20,365 nucleotides of DNA, taken from positions 1-20,365 of IMG/VR virus record IMGVR_UViG_3300020558_000044. One strand, given 5' to 3'. The position numbers and the translations under genes were made by a program. Under the pieces are notes generated by a model. The model was not told where the DNA came from. It saw only the letters and a list, made by a program, of their open reading frames with translations, and did not search any database. The number at the start of each line of letters is the position of its first letter. Within the stretch, counting starts at the first letter, position 1. The DNA is from a virus. Positions 7,997-12,151 of the stretch are shown one piece after another.

Positions 7997-8639
7997 TTGT
8001 TTTAGTGGCGCCAGAAATATTTGTTGCTTCATTTTGTAGTCTTTCAGCTTCTGCCATAAGTTGTTTTGCTTCTGTAATCATCTTCTGGGCCTGAGCTAAT
8101 CTTTGTGCTGCAAGTTGTTCGTCACTAAGAACCTCGGTCATTGAAATACTTGTTTCTACTTCTGCTGGCACACTTCTGCTCTGACTAGGTACTCTAACTT
8201 CACCTAAATTCCTATTTTCAGTGACTCGCTTTTTCTTACCAGACAACCCACTATTTTTGTCTAGATCTGCAAGTTCTTTAATTGCTTCTTCCCCTTGTTC
8301 CATTTTTGTAAGAATATTATTAAGTTCATCTAGTCTCACATTACTGTTATTGGTTGGAGTTACAATAACTTGATTTGTAGGCACTTTTTTAATCATACCT
8401 TCTTTGTGTAAGGTGGTCAACGCATTATTACCATCACTTAAGGTATATCTGAACAAATAATCACTAAACTCTTTTGCTTGCTGTCCTGAGTCTGATTCTA
8501 GTGCTTTCATTATATCATCATGAATGTGTCTAGGTAAAACTTCTGGGTAAACTAATAGACACATATGCGTTTCACCAGGCACTGTCCTATATAAAATTAC
8601 AACTTTTTTATTATTATGTTTGCCAACATGCTTAATCAT
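7950..8639 (-). CDS. conserved phage protein with coiled-coil and basic tail, unknown function
   Basis: 229 residues, started by ATG after GAGGA at a good distance. There are three parts. First, a compact N-terminal domain (VVILYRTVPGETHMCLLVYPEVLPRHIHDDIMKALES, then SDYLFRYTLSDG...KVPTNQVIVTP; about 10-95). Second, a charged linker. Third, an Ala/Glu/Gln-rich helix (about 173-208, LAAQRLAQAQKMITEAKQLM) that should form a coiled coil, ending in a Lys/Arg/Thr tail (about 212-229). From memory, related proteins occur in T4-like cyanophages as hypotheticals. The last 47 bases also code the start of the next gene in another frame. No enzymatic motif is seen; a scaffold or adapter role is possible. 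Confidence 0.65.
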   Translation of the reverse strand: MIKHVGKHNNKKVVILYRTVPGETHMCLLVYPEVLPRHIHDDIMKALESDSGQQAKEFSDYLFRYTLSDGNNALTTLHKEGMIKKVPTNQVIVTPTNNSNVRLDELNNILTKMEQGEEAIKELADLDKNSGLSGKKKRVTENRNLGEVRVPSQSRSVPAEVETSISMTEVLSDEQLAAQRLAQAQKMITEAKQLMAEAERLQNEATNISGATKTNVKTRKTKKTASKVN

Positions 8640-8832
8640 TTTTTAATTCCTCGGTTGGTGGCTCTGTACTATTATTAGTGCCAGCAGCTTGTACTATTGC
8701 GCTAAGTTTTTGAAACATTGCACCTACTGTAGAATACTCTTCTACTCGGAAAGCATTCCTTGTACTTGCAACATTTAAAATATCTAAAATTACAACTATA
8801 TCCTGTAAACTTAGACTGGGTTTTAGGTCCAT
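8632..8832 (-). CDS. small protein of unknown function behind a hairpin-masked ribosome binding site
   Basis: 66 residues from the ATG at 8832 (MDLKPSLSLQDIVVILDIL). This start is preferred because GGAG lies five bases upstream. The in-frame ATG at 8874 has no Shine-Dalgarno sequence, and its extra 14 codons coincide with a perfect inverted repeat. The protein is mostly helical (LQDIVVILDILNVAS; VGAMFQKLSAIVQAAG) with an acidic Asn/Thr/Glu tail. It overlaps the following gene by 8 bases. Function is unknown. Confidence 0.55.
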   Translation of the reverse strand: MDLKPSLSLQDIVVILDILNVASTRNAFRVEEYSTVGAMFQKLSAIVQAAGTNNSTEPPTEELKND

Positions 8833-8839
8833 ATATGCT

Positions 8840-8863
8840 CCATAGTAAAAGTATTTACTATGG
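8840..8863 (-). promoter_or_regulatory. perfect 10-bp hairpin overlapping the Shine-Dalgarno sequence
   Basis: In the - strand message the arms CCATAGTAAA and TTTACTATGG are perfectly complementary and separated by the four bases TACT. The 3' arm ends in GG, which are the first two bases of the GGAG ribosome binding site of the gene starting at 8832. No T-run follows, so it is not an intrinsic terminator. It could control translation of that gene. Confidence 0.5.
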
Positions 8864-8884
8864 TTTACAGACATTAAAATTTTT

Positions 8885-9175
8885 TTATATAGTAAAGGCT
8901 GACTTGTTTAATTTGTCTAGCATGAAACAAAAAAATGTGCTTTCACTGTGAATCTCAAACGCCACCACCTTCTGTACAACAATATTCCCATCTGATTGTT
9001 CTACTATCTCATCACCTAGATAAAATCTACCCTCTAAATTCTCATAAATCCAATCTACAAAAACTCTATCATGCACTTTGCTATCAAAATGTACTTTTTC
9101 TAAATGAGGAGAGCAATAATTTAGCCTCCTCAAGTCAAAAATATTAAGCGGATTAGGCTCACCGTATTTTATCAT
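8885..9175 (-). CDS. small conserved phage protein of unknown function
   Basis: 96 residues with an ATGA overlap with the VWA protein gene upstream, so translation is probably coupled. The protein has many aromatic and charged residues (FDLRRLNYCSPHLEKVHFD, RVFVDWIYENLEGRFYLGDEIV, VVAFEIHSESTFFCFML). It looks like a small alpha/beta fold without membrane segments. Three Cys are present but not in a recognisable metal motif. Its tight link to the VWA/AAA+ genes makes it a candidate partner of that system. Confidence 0.6.
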   Translation of the reverse strand: MIKYGEPNPLNIFDLRRLNYCSPHLEKVHFDSKVHDRVFVDWIYENLEGRFYLGDEIVEQSDGNIVVQKVVAFEIHSESTFFCFMLDKLNKSAFTI

Positions 9176-10452
9176 TTTTTACGACCAGCATGCTCGTAAA
9201 TAGCCCATACTCCGAATGGTGGTTGTGCATTTTCATTGCCTTTAATAATAAAGACCGTATCACAATAATTTTCGTCGCCCCATGAACCAAAAGGACATCC
9301 GTCAGTAAACATAATAAACTTTTTAGGCTGGATATTGTTGTCTTTCATAAAAGTATAATTAGCCATAAAGTCAGTGCCACCACCACCTGCTGGCTTATAG
9401 TTTCCAATATCCTCTAAACTCTCACTGGTATATTCTTGATGGTTATAAACTTCTGTATCGAAACTCCACACTTGAATTTTGTACTCATCGTATGCTTCCA
9501 TAATGCCTTGAATTTCTGTCATAAAGGCACTGATGTCGTTTTCAGAAATACTGCCACTAGTATCAATAGCAATAGCTACATCGATTTGTTCTCCAGGTTT
9601 CATACCAGGCATAACTGCATCGATATGCCAAGATTTTCTACTTGGGCGCATCCAAGTGTAGTCATTTTTAATAGTACTAAGAATTTGTTGTTGTAATAGT
9701 TCACGCCAGTCAACAACTGGTTGGGTCATATTTTTAATAAGTCTAGACACCCCAGCTGGCAAATTTCCTGCACCTGTAGATTGTGCAGCTTGCAACACTG
9801 CCTCACGAATTTCATCTTTAATTGCCTGCCGTTCTGCAGCACTTAGGCGAGGTTTTTTAGATTTAGTTTCGTCCCCGTCGCCATCTGCATCATTATCACT
9901 ATCATCGTCCAAATGATCGTCCAACAGTTGATCGATAAGATCTTCTACATTAATTTTTTCTGCATTTTCGTATAAATCGTCATATACTTCTTCTGCACTC
10001 CATCCTTTATATTTGGCATCATAAAGGCAAGGATTAATACGATCACCAATGCCAAATTGAATTAGGTCATTGTTAACGCAATAGTCTGCAGCACAATTAA
10101 ATAGCATTGAATCACGCTCTTTGCCTGTACGGCCAAGATGATCGTATACATTGTGCAACACTTCATGGCCAAATAAAAACTCAACTTCTTTGGCTTTAAG
10201 TTTACCCACAAATTCAGTATTGTAATAAAATTTACGGCCATCAGTTGCAGCAGTTCCGCACCAACTATCTGCGTTTACTAGTTCAAGCCGTGTAGCAAGA
10301 TTGCCAAAAAATGGAGCTTTAAGCAAAAGTCCAATACGAGCTGTGGTTAGTTTTTCACGGATTTCACGATCCTTATTTTTATCAATTTCGGTAGTAAGGC
10401 GTCCAGCAAGTTTTTGCCCTTTAGGTGCCTTAGAGGTACTAGTAGTTGCCAT
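9172..10452 (-). CDS. CobT-like protein: zinc metallopeptidase-like domain plus VWA domain
   Basis: 426 residues. The N-terminal domain has H96-E-V-L-H100 (HExxH) in FLFGHEVLHNVYDHLGR, the form of a zinc peptidase and of the DUF2201 N-terminal family. A very acidic linker (176-196, Asp-rich) follows, as in CobT. The C-terminal VWA domain has the MIDAS motif D297-T-S299-G-S301, T360 (GGGGTDF) and D384 (MFTDG). Such proteins work with MoxR/CobS-type AAA+ ATPases as chaperone- or chelatase-like pairs, and that ATPase is encoded just upstream. The start has AAGGA at seven bases and its own promoter. Whether the HExxH is catalytically active is unknown. Confidence 0.85.
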   Translation of the reverse strand: MATTSTSKAPKGQKLAGRLTTEIDKNKDREIREKLTTARIGLLLKAPFFGNLATRLELVNADSWCGTAATDGRKFYYNTEFVGKLKAKEVEFLFGHEVLHNVYDHLGRTGKERDSMLFNCAADYCVNNDLIQFGIGDRINPCLYDAKYKGWSAEEVYDDLYENAEKINVEDLIDQLLDDHLDDDSDNDADGDGDETKSKKPRLSAAERQAIKDEIREAVLQAAQSTGAGNLPAGVSRLIKNMTQPVVDWRELLQQQILSTIKNDYTWMRPSRKSWHIDAVMPGMKPGEQIDVAIAIDTSGSISENDISAFMTEIQGIMEAYDEYKIQVWSFDTEVYNHQEYTSESLEDIGNYKPAGGGGTDFMANYTFMKDNNIQPKKFIMFTDGCPFGSWGDENYCDTVFIIKGNENAQPPFGVWAIYEHAGRKK

Positions 10453-10477: not shown

Positions 10478-10506
10478 ATTATAACAAGTGTTGGATTTTT
10501 TGTCTA
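10478..10506 (-). promoter_or_regulatory. strong sigma70-type promoter for the VWA protein gene
   Basis: On the - strand TAGACA (10501-10506, five of six to consensus) and TATAAT (10478-10483, perfect) are exactly 17 bases apart. The three bases before the -10 are TGT, giving an extended -10 element. The start of transcription would be near 10471, leaving a leader of about 19 bases that holds AAGGA before the ATG. It lies in the 92-base gap between genes. Confidence 0.7.
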
Positions 10507-10544: not shown

Positions 10545-10856
10545 TTAACACCATTTCAAATTAAACATTGATGTTTCTAGATCGGTAGCAAAGTACAATG
10601 AAATTTCTTGTCTACCCTCAGTGATAAAGTGCCAAGTCCATTTACGAATAAATGTAGGCTCATTACCGGCCATTACCATGTAAAGTAATATATCTCTTTC
10701 GTAAGTATCACCAAATACATTCCAACACCAAGTTCTTAACTCAATAAATTTTTTATATCGTTCAGATTTCGGTCCTAAAATAAGAACACGATGTTTGAAG
10801 TATTGGTTGCCAGTGAATTTTTTATCTAATTTCTGCCAGACTAGAGAGGCACTCAT
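10545..10856 (-). CDS. small conserved phage protein between the AAA+ and VWA genes
   Basis: 103 residues. RVLILGPKSERYKKFIELRTWCWNVFGD (about 23-50), RKWTWHFI and EISLYFATDLETSMFNLKW suggest a compact alpha/beta protein rich in Trp and basic residues. From memory, similar short proteins occur in T4-like cyanophages without a known role. AGGAA precedes the ATG by six bases. Both lie in the loop of a 9-bp inverted repeat, whose downstream arm is codons 3-5. Its place between the AAA+ ATPase and its VWA partner suggests a related job. Confidence 0.65.
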   Translation of the reverse strand: MSASLVWQKLDKKFTGNQYFKHRVLILGPKSERYKKFIELRTWCWNVFGDTYERDILLYMVMAGNEPTFIRKWTWHFITEGRQEISLYFATDLETSMFNLKWC

Positions 10857-10884
10857 AATGGTTCCTGTATATAAATGCCTCTCT
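10843..10884 (-). promoter_or_regulatory. 9-bp inverted repeat that places ribosome binding site and start codon in its loop
   Basis: In the - strand message AGAGAGGCA (10876-10884) pairs perfectly with TGCCTCTCT (10843-10851). The 24 bases between hold AGGAA and the ATG of the gene ending at 10545. Five of nine pairs are G-C in an AT-rich genome. The upstream arm is in the gap after the ATPase gene; the downstream arm is within the first codons. Confidence 0.5.
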
Positions 10885-10891
10885 TTATGTT

Positions 10892-12022
10892 TTATCGTGA
10901 GTTAGCAGCAATGATATATTTGCCAAATCGTTTGTGGAACTCATCAAAGTTCTTCATCTTGTTTGGCAGGAACGGTAGGTTATAAGTAGTTAGAGCTACT
11001 CGAGCGCCCATTACAGTAAGTTCTGTGGTAAAGTTATCCATCATAAACTTAAAGAAATTGTCTGCCATTGCATGCCATTCTGCATTAGGTTGGGTCTTTC
11101 CATGTTTTTGCAGTTGATCTTGAAGTTCATAGCACAGGCTAATAACCATACTATACATAGCACTGATTTCTTTAACCTTCAATTCTGTAACTTGACCCGA
11201 TAGAACAGTTTCTGGACGAGGAAGTTGGCCTGCAATTTTACGATGCGCCATGAATTTTACAGCCACACCTTCACCTACTGCGCCTGAAACAAGGTCAGTA
11301 AGATCATTGTCAGAAACATCACTATCTGTAAGTAGCCTACTTACGAAAGTCCAACTGCGTGGGGTAGCGAATGCGCGACTTGAACTACGAGGATCAAAGT
11401 CATTAAGATCCTGTTTTGCAAAACCAATGTAACCAACTACATCCTTATGAATACGATTTAGAGTAGCCCACTTTTCCCAACTTTCATGATCTACTCGCAT
11501 TTCAATATGCAAGAAACGATTTGCAAGTGGACTAGGCATGCGATAAGTTACACCTTTGTCACTTTCACGATTGCCTGCTGCTACGATCACTACATTGTCT
11601 GGCAATACATATTTGCCTACACGACGATTCAATACAAGTTGATATGCGGTGCTTTGAGTAGCAGGTGCAGCACTATTCATTTCATCCATGAATAGTACCA
11701 CAATGGGATATTGTTTTGCAGTTTCCTCATCGGGCAGATCAATGGGAGGAGCCCAATCCATTTTACCAAGTTCTTTATTATAAAATGGAATACCGCGAAG
11801 ATCGGTAGGGTCCATCTGTGCTAGGCGTAGATCAATCATTAGTCCGCCTAGTTCTTTTGCAATACTGGCAACAACTTCACTTTTGCCAATACCAGGTGGT
11901 CCCCAAAGGAATACTGGTTGTTTAATATTAAATGCTGTCAACAGGCATCGACGAGCAGTTTCTGCAGTAACAGTTCGGGTTTCAGTTACAGATGATTTCT
12001 TTTGCGTATCTAGGCTACTCAT
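10892..12022 (-). CDS. cobS: CobS/MoxR-like AAA+ ATPase
   Basis: 376 residues. Walker A is GPPGIGKS (41-48), Walker B VVLFMDEMN (108-116, D113-E114), sensor 1 VAAGNR (147-152) and the arginine-finger region SPLANRF (164-170). This is the MoxR/CobS class of hexameric AAA+ ATPases, which remodel or load metal into partner proteins together with a VWA-domain protein. That partner is encoded one gene downstream. CobS-type genes are common in T4-like cyanophages, where a cobalt-chelatase role is assumed but unproved. The start has AGGAG six bases upstream and a promoter about 100 bases upstream, giving a long leader. Confidence 0.88.
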   Translation of the reverse strand: MSSLDTQKKSSVTETRTVTAETARRCLLTAFNIKQPVFLWGPPGIGKSEVVASIAKELGGLMIDLRLAQMDPTDLRGIPFYNKELGKMDWAPPIDLPDEETAKQYPIVVLFMDEMNSAAPATQSTAYQLVLNRRVGKYVLPDNVVIVAAGNRESDKGVTYRMPSPLANRFLHIEMRVDHESWEKWATLNRIHKDVVGYIGFAKQDLNDFDPRSSSRAFATPRSWTFVSRLLTDSDVSDNDLTDLVSGAVGEGVAVKFMAHRKIAGQLPRPETVLSGQVTELKVKEISAMYSMVISLCYELQDQLQKHGKTQPNAEWHAMADNFFKFMMDNFTTELTVMGARVALTTYNLPFLPNKMKNFDEFHKRFGKYIIAANSR

Positions 12023-12122: not shown

Positions 12123-12151
12123 ATTTTATATTATAAGCTATTATTTGTCAA
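12123..12151 (-). promoter_or_regulatory. sigma70-type promoter for the CobS-like ATPase gene
   Basis: On the - strand TTGACA (12146-12151, perfect) and TAAAAT (12123-12128, five of six) are exactly 17 bases apart. Transcription would start near 12116 and give a leader of about 94 bases before the ATG at 12022. The -35 overlaps the last codons of the upstream gene. In that leader a short 5-bp stem (GTTCT at 12041-12045 with AGAAC at 12026-12030) covers part of the ribosome binding site. Confidence 0.65.

Follow-up and report, generated by a model that had tools for sequence, protein, structure and literature searches.

RNA structures that hide the translation start have been described for the phage T4 genes e, soc, 49 and I-TevI, and in gene e late promoters lie inside the 5' strand of the structure (available part of PMC3014915). 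In the longer early transcripts the gene e structure cuts lysozyme synthesis 100-fold, and the transcripts from the late promoters lack its 5' portion (same part of PMC3014915). Gene e is a classic case in which promoter choice sets the translatability of an mRNA. Among jumbo phages, ATAAATA late promoters have been reported for CBB and GAP32 (available part of PMC5259590).

The DNA analysed here, called the window, is a virus record of 20,365 bases that represents a fragment. On its - strand, a hairpin covers the ribosome binding site of a 66-aa gene. An initial annotation of this DNA had considered a translational operator at this place to be something new; in view of the precedents at T4 e, soc, 49 and I-TevI (available part of PMC3014915), the control is not new in kind. 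The hairpin is most likely another control of the gene e kind, located at a jumbo-phage gene without an assigned function. We assign a probability of roughly 0.6 to the reading that it is a timing lock of this type, by which read-through mRNA would be sealed and late mRNA would be open.

The inverted repeat and its gene neighborhood

The hairpin is a perfect 10-bp inverted repeat with a 4-nt loop on the - strand of the window (8863-8840). It consists of the 5' arm CCATAGTAAA (8854-8863), the loop TACT (8850-8853) and the 3' arm TTTACTATGG (8840-8849). The 3' arm ends in two bases that also open a Shine-Dalgarno GGAG (8838-8841, - strand), which is followed by CATAT and the ATG at 8832. Both the perfect hairpin over the ribosome binding site and the contribution of its 3' arm to GGAG, five bases before the ATG, were confirmed as initially annotated. 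The hairpin lies between a 96-aa gene (8885-9175, - strand; stop codon 8887-8885), which is the putative source of read-through RNA, and the 66-aa gene (8632-8832, - strand), assigned to phrog_13789. Folded alone, the hairpin has a stability of -10.8 kcal/mol. Dinucleotide shuffling of the window as a whole yielded 0.45 perfect stems of at least 10 bp (loop 3-8) per window, and 0.17 stems per window of equal or greater stability, so the hairpin by itself is only a mild surprise. The weight of the case lies in the position of the hairpin and in its relatives rather than in the hairpin alone. An intrinsic terminator has a G+C-rich stem and a T-run; no T-run is present here, and no terminator-like site was found on the - strand from 9172 to 8832, which bears out the earlier view that the hairpin is not a terminator. 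At the gathering score, Rfam gave no matches in the window and eight relatives.

The ATG at 8874, named initially as a possible real start, was rejected as the start of the small gene. In 14 of 24 distinct relatives with an ATG start, an in-frame stop is located at most 14 codons upstream of the homologous start. Structure prediction for the 66-aa protein from its single sequence gave two helices with a pLDDT of 63 and a pTM of 0.33, too poor for use.

Upstream and codirectional with the small gene are a gene for a DUF2201 putative metallopeptidase with a VWA-like domain (9172-10452, - strand) and a gene for an AAA (MoxR-like) ATPase (10892-12022, - strand), with a 103-aa gene between them (10545-10856, - strand). 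Candidate sigma70-like promoters, each with 11/12 matches to the consensus and identified by that match only, precede the ATPase gene (TTGACA-17-TAAAAT, 12123-12151, - strand) and the DUF2201 gene (TAGACA-17-TATAAT, 10478-10506, - strand). Over the region as a whole, the scan returned 20 sites compared with 18 by chance, so that support for upstream early promoters is weak. From the codirectional genes, the lack of a terminator-like site and the two sigma70-like sites upstream, we infer read-through into the small gene.

Two further features of this neighborhood were recorded. Homologs of the DUF2201/VWA gene (9172-10452, - strand) carry the label "HNH endonuclease" or "homing endonuclease" in many phage records, apparently through the spread of a misannotation. 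A second hairpin, AGAGAGGCAUUUAUA/UAUGAGUGCCUCUCU, is found at 10843-10884 (- strand); its 5' arm starts 8 nt past the ATPase gene, and its 3' arm consists of the first codons of the 103-aa gene (10856-10545), start codon included. It is kept with other bases in the relatives L015, L035 and L010 (in the last as GGAGUCGAAGACA/UGUCUUCGACUCC), and resembles a lock for translational coupling that has no late promoter. In L006, L012, L013, L016, L027, L028 and L031, the region before the homolog of the 103-aa gene has, instead of the second hairpin, another element that is structured and G/C-rich, of the type GGGGCAGGG...CTCCTTT...CCGTAAGTCCCC. No Rfam match was obtained for this element in L006, L012, L013, L016 and L031, the five of the seven loci that were searched.

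The TAAATA motif within the hairpin

A near DNA search of the window in phage records gave no match. With the small protein as query, only two near-identical relatives (L002 and L003) were retrieved from viral contigs; their hairpin is identical to that of the window and is uninformative on pairing. Therefore, the neighboring DUF2201 protein, which shares up to 44% identity with proteins of jumbo phages such as PA5oct, was chosen as anchor for a wider search and yielded 54 viral-contig loci. When the open reading frames of loci L001-L057 were searched with a profile, 40 loci proved to have a homolog of the small gene. One of these is the window itself and two contigs are represented twice (L002/L004 and L003/L005), which leaves 37 other records. 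No homolog was seen in the available stretch of 17 of the 54 DUF2201-anchored loci; for one of the 17, L006 (contig G008), it is encoded elsewhere in the contig.

The sequence GTAAATA, a T4-type late promoter motif, is located at 8858-8852 on the - strand and spans the 5' arm and the loop of the hairpin; a position within the 5' strand or loop is characteristic of the gene e type. TAAATA was found at -24 to -40 in all 26 distinct 70-nt homolog leaders and also before the homolog in G008, which amounts to 27/27 distinct upstream regions with the motif 24-40 nt from the start. In Salicola phage SCTP-2 it is positioned at -26, and it is absent upstream of the PA5oct homolog. The motif is widely used in the relatives. 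In the largest contig it precedes 96 of 407 open reading frames (9.2 expected) and in the second 38 of 192 (3.5 expected), and in both it is the most enriched upstream hexamer; in the third it precedes 21 of 135 (4.4 expected) and ranks fourth among hexamers. In the three contigs taken together, it occurs most often at -35..-21. The gp55-like late-sigma family phrog_12791 was detected in 7 of 11 records searched (E 1e-73 to 1e-116), including both ~355 kb records, PA5oct and SCTP-2, and was found neither in the window record nor in three other partial contigs. Judged from its sequence context, the TAAATA motif is a T4-type late promoter.

Among ten large genes of contig G001 with the motif, three had informative PHROG names, all structural (tail fibre, tail tube, virion structural); the named genes among ten large ones without it were DNA polymerase, groEL, a protease or tail-fibre-assembly match and a tail protein, the sample being small and picked by size. 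At the homologs the motif reads [G/T]TAAATA, compared with mostly ATAAATA at the control promoters of G001. An A/T tract, AAAAAAATTTT (8876-8886, - strand), overlaps the stop codon of the 96-aa gene and is conserved ~20 nt before TAAATA in the homolog leaders. In the window (8876-8886, - strand) and the homolog leaders this tract was also recorded as AAAAATTTTT. The 52 other late promoters of G001 have neither the A/T tract nor G/T before the motif. The tract may resemble an UP element.

If transcription starts ~6 nt after TAAATA, as at T4 late promoters, the late mRNA would begin at ~8846 (- strand), inside the 3' arm, and would lack the 5' arm. Because the motif lies within the 5' arm and loop, a late transcript would be without the hairpin. 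By analogy with T4, this would leave a late leader of 14 nt with a Shine-Dalgarno sequence free of a partner.

Arm pairing and predicted sealing of the start

In a MAFFT alignment of 13 leaders the stems were out of register. Because the leaders are too divergent to be aligned reliably, an alignment-free partner-swap test was used and no alignment-based pair counts were made. Each leader contributed a 5' piece (up to TAAATA) and a 3' piece (to the ATG), which were combined with each other and with the pieces of other leaders, in a sample of 22 homolog leaders at most 85% identical. From the controls of this test, as well as from those of the opening-cost test and the sealing test at P of at least 0.9, leaders matching that of a homolog were left out. 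Own partners gave -11.15 kcal/mol compared with -8.27 kcal/mol for swapped partners (z -5.5, p 0.0002, which is the floor of 5000 permutations). For 91 other genes with the motif, the values were -5.86 and -5.56 (p 0.09). The effect persisted when the identity cut-off was set to 0.85, 0.70 or 0.60 and with each of three geometries; a piece taken from farther upstream gave a null result (p 0.23).

The paired arms themselves differ, being GUAUCUCCAUUG/CAAUGGAGAUAC in L036, GUCUCCGUA/UACGGAGAU in L044, CUCCGU/ACGGAG in L020 and CCAUAGUAAA/UUUACUAUGG in the window. Pairing is kept in related phages (partner-swap p 0.0002, n=22), as expected for control of the gene e type. The initial annotation had held that freely varying arms would speak against the hairpin and that compensatory changes would speak for it; the sequences do vary among the relatives, pairing is maintained, and the partner-swap result supports compensatory change.

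A start counted as sealed if its Shine-Dalgarno sequence or AUG was predicted to pair with RNA lying upstream of the putative transcript start. P of at least 0.9 was reached by 13 of 22 homologs; among the controls it was reached by 16 of 91 (Fisher p 0.0002), and among the 462 swaps by 33%. With the cut lowered to P of at least 0.5, the corresponding values were 16 of 22, 46 of 91 and 73%; homologs and swaps are alike at this level, so only the 0.9 cut separates them. Six of the 22 relatives (L056, L042, L045, L017, L018 and L030) had no seal at P of at least 0.5. The cost of opening compared with shuffled flanks gave p<0.05 in 7 and p<0.1 in 12 of 28 homolog leaders, which are not independent, and p<0.05 in 8 and p<0.1 in 12 of 82 controls. 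T4 gene e, computed in the same way as a positive control, behaved as expected, with an opening cost of 19.3 compared with 8.8 for shuffled flanks and 2.3 in late RNA (p 0.010, the floor). SCTP-2 has the motif and showed no seal (p 0.90).

For the window, opening from the Shine-Dalgarno sequence to the AUG cost 6.9 kcal/mol compared with 5.5 kcal/mol for shuffled flanks (p 0.21); the model of the late RNA gave 3.8. The stem covers only two of the four Shine-Dalgarno bases. In a short context, the predicted pairing with the upstream arm was 0.53 for the Shine-Dalgarno sequence and 0.90 for the AUG. With 35 nt on each side, the Shine-Dalgarno sequence was unpaired at 0.63 in read-through RNA versus 0.37 in late RNA, that is, there was no extra pairing in read-through. 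The minimum free energy fold of the short leader contains a predicted outer stem in which GUCUGUA (8866-8872, - strand) pairs with UAUGGAC (8833-8827, - strand) over the start codon. In a longer context an alternative outer stem, CUGUAAAC/GUUUACAG, was predicted instead, joining 8870-8863 with 8810-8803. In these models sealing in the window is partial, and weaker than in the strong members of the set.

This weakness would fit an explanation in which the late promoter is real and the lock works in the relatives, and the hairpin of the window itself is due to chance or has no effect. The expectation of 0.17 stems of this stability per window, the weak sealing of the Shine-Dalgarno sequence (p 0.21) and the relatives that have the motif but no seal all agree with it. 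However, the arms of the window pair with -15.0 kcal/mol compared with a mean of -7.4 kcal/mol for swapped arms, a value reached by 2% of swaps, and they do so at the same place as the stems of the relatives. We consider a chance hairpin unlikely.

Proposed control of the small gene and comparison with known systems

In the timing-lock reading, the genes for the MoxR-like ATPase, the 103-aa protein, the DUF2201 metallopeptidase and the 96-aa protein would be transcribed early, from promoters of the host type, and RNA polymerase would continue from them into the small gene. In this long RNA the 5' arm would pair with the Shine-Dalgarno and start-codon region, and translation would be low. Later, the gp55-like sigma would start transcription at GTAAATA within the hairpin, and the late mRNA, beginning at ~8846 without the 5' arm, would be translated. 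The proposal of the initial annotation that a start-hiding hairpin controls translation here stands in part. Hiding of the start is backed by compensatory evolution; in place of the regulators considered then (temperature, a protein or ribosome passage), the evidence favors promoter choice.

A translational operator or RNA thermometer, that is, a hairpin present in the working mRNA and opened or closed by a protein or by temperature, would also be compatible with a start-covering hairpin of conserved pairing, which fits any translational control, and with the A/U-rich stem of the window and its moderate opening cost. However, with the late motif in the 5' arm and loop in 27/27 distinct leaders, the late RNA would be without the hairpin, and arm and loop sequences diverge widely among the relatives, unlike those of a protein operator with conserved loop bases. 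Such control is improbable. Translational coupling, in which ribosomes finishing the 96-aa gene would melt the structure and the small gene would be translated from the same RNA, is also improbable. The two genes lie close together in the same direction, the predicted outer stem begins 13 nt past the stop codon, and the second hairpin of the window, 8 nt after a stop codon, is placed as coupling predicts. However, the inner hairpin begins 22 nt past the stop codon with the A/T tract between, a distance probably out of reach of the terminating ribosome, and coupling leaves the invariant late motif unexplained. It is very unlikely that the repeat is a DNA operator bound by a dimeric repressor or activator of the late promoter: the inverted repeat is perfect, its center is near the inferred start site and the opposite strand passes the partner-swap test too (z -4.6), as expected for an inverted repeat, so that this test alone cannot separate RNA from DNA, but the repeats vary in sequence, length and register among the relatives, whereas the site of one protein would keep its bases.

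The timing lock may extend beyond the small gene. The GH19 endolysin gene of G001 (PF00182, E 5e-7) is preceded by AACTCCTTTG, TAAATA in the loop and CAAAGGAGTT (z 6.8, p 0.010), and the SprT-like gene of G001 has a similar leader. We tentatively suggest that late promoters nested in start-sealing hairpins might be a recurrent timing device in the jumbo phages of this lineage. It would be conserved where one late unit begins behind an early operon, here with a promoter subclass marked by the A/T tract ~20 nt before [G/T]TAAATA, and would recur at the unrelated GH19 endolysin and SprT-like genes of G001. A general use at endolysins was rejected; TAAATA is present in 6 of 9 homologs and a strong nested hairpin in one of the nine (G001). 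At the endolysin homolog L118 (contig G012), a hairpin CTTGAGT/ACTCAAG was observed downstream of TAAATA, in the predicted late leader and just before the Shine-Dalgarno sequence.

If the timing lock is real, distant jumbo phages would share the T4 gene e architecture, with compensatory evolution, and it would represent a general solution for a late gene located behind an early operon. TAAATA between pairing arms provides a searchable signature for other phages, and the lock points to a small conserved gene whose product may be harmful or useless if made early. Literature searches for cases beyond T4 returned reviews on T4 and papers on promoters of jumbo phages; as far as this literature was covered, it contained no description of a late promoter within a hairpin in jumbo phages.

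Among the known systems, Wroclawvirus PA5oct (Arenbergviridae) encodes a homolog of the small protein, EST35_0345, with 46% identity over 46 residues, and its genome contains a gp55-like sigma. In contrast to the window, the start of EST35_0345 overlaps the preceding gene and no TAAATA precedes it. With CBB and GAP32 the present phages share a T4-like late motif before structural genes together with a gp55-like sigma in a jumbo phage; no hairpin is described in the available part of PMC5259590, and the term "hairpin" occurs 0 times in that paper. Compared with T4 gene e, the control proposed here concerns another gene, with no function assigned, in jumbo phages related to PA5oct, and it is predicted from the sequence alone; it also differs in the [G/T]TAAATA motif, the additional conserved A/T tract and the weaker seal in the window. 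The arrangement would otherwise be that of T4 e as given in the available part of PMC3014915: a late promoter, TATAAATA, is located in the DNA for the 5' strand of a stem that hides the Shine-Dalgarno sequence and AUG, and the late mRNA lacks this strand in T4 and would lack it here.
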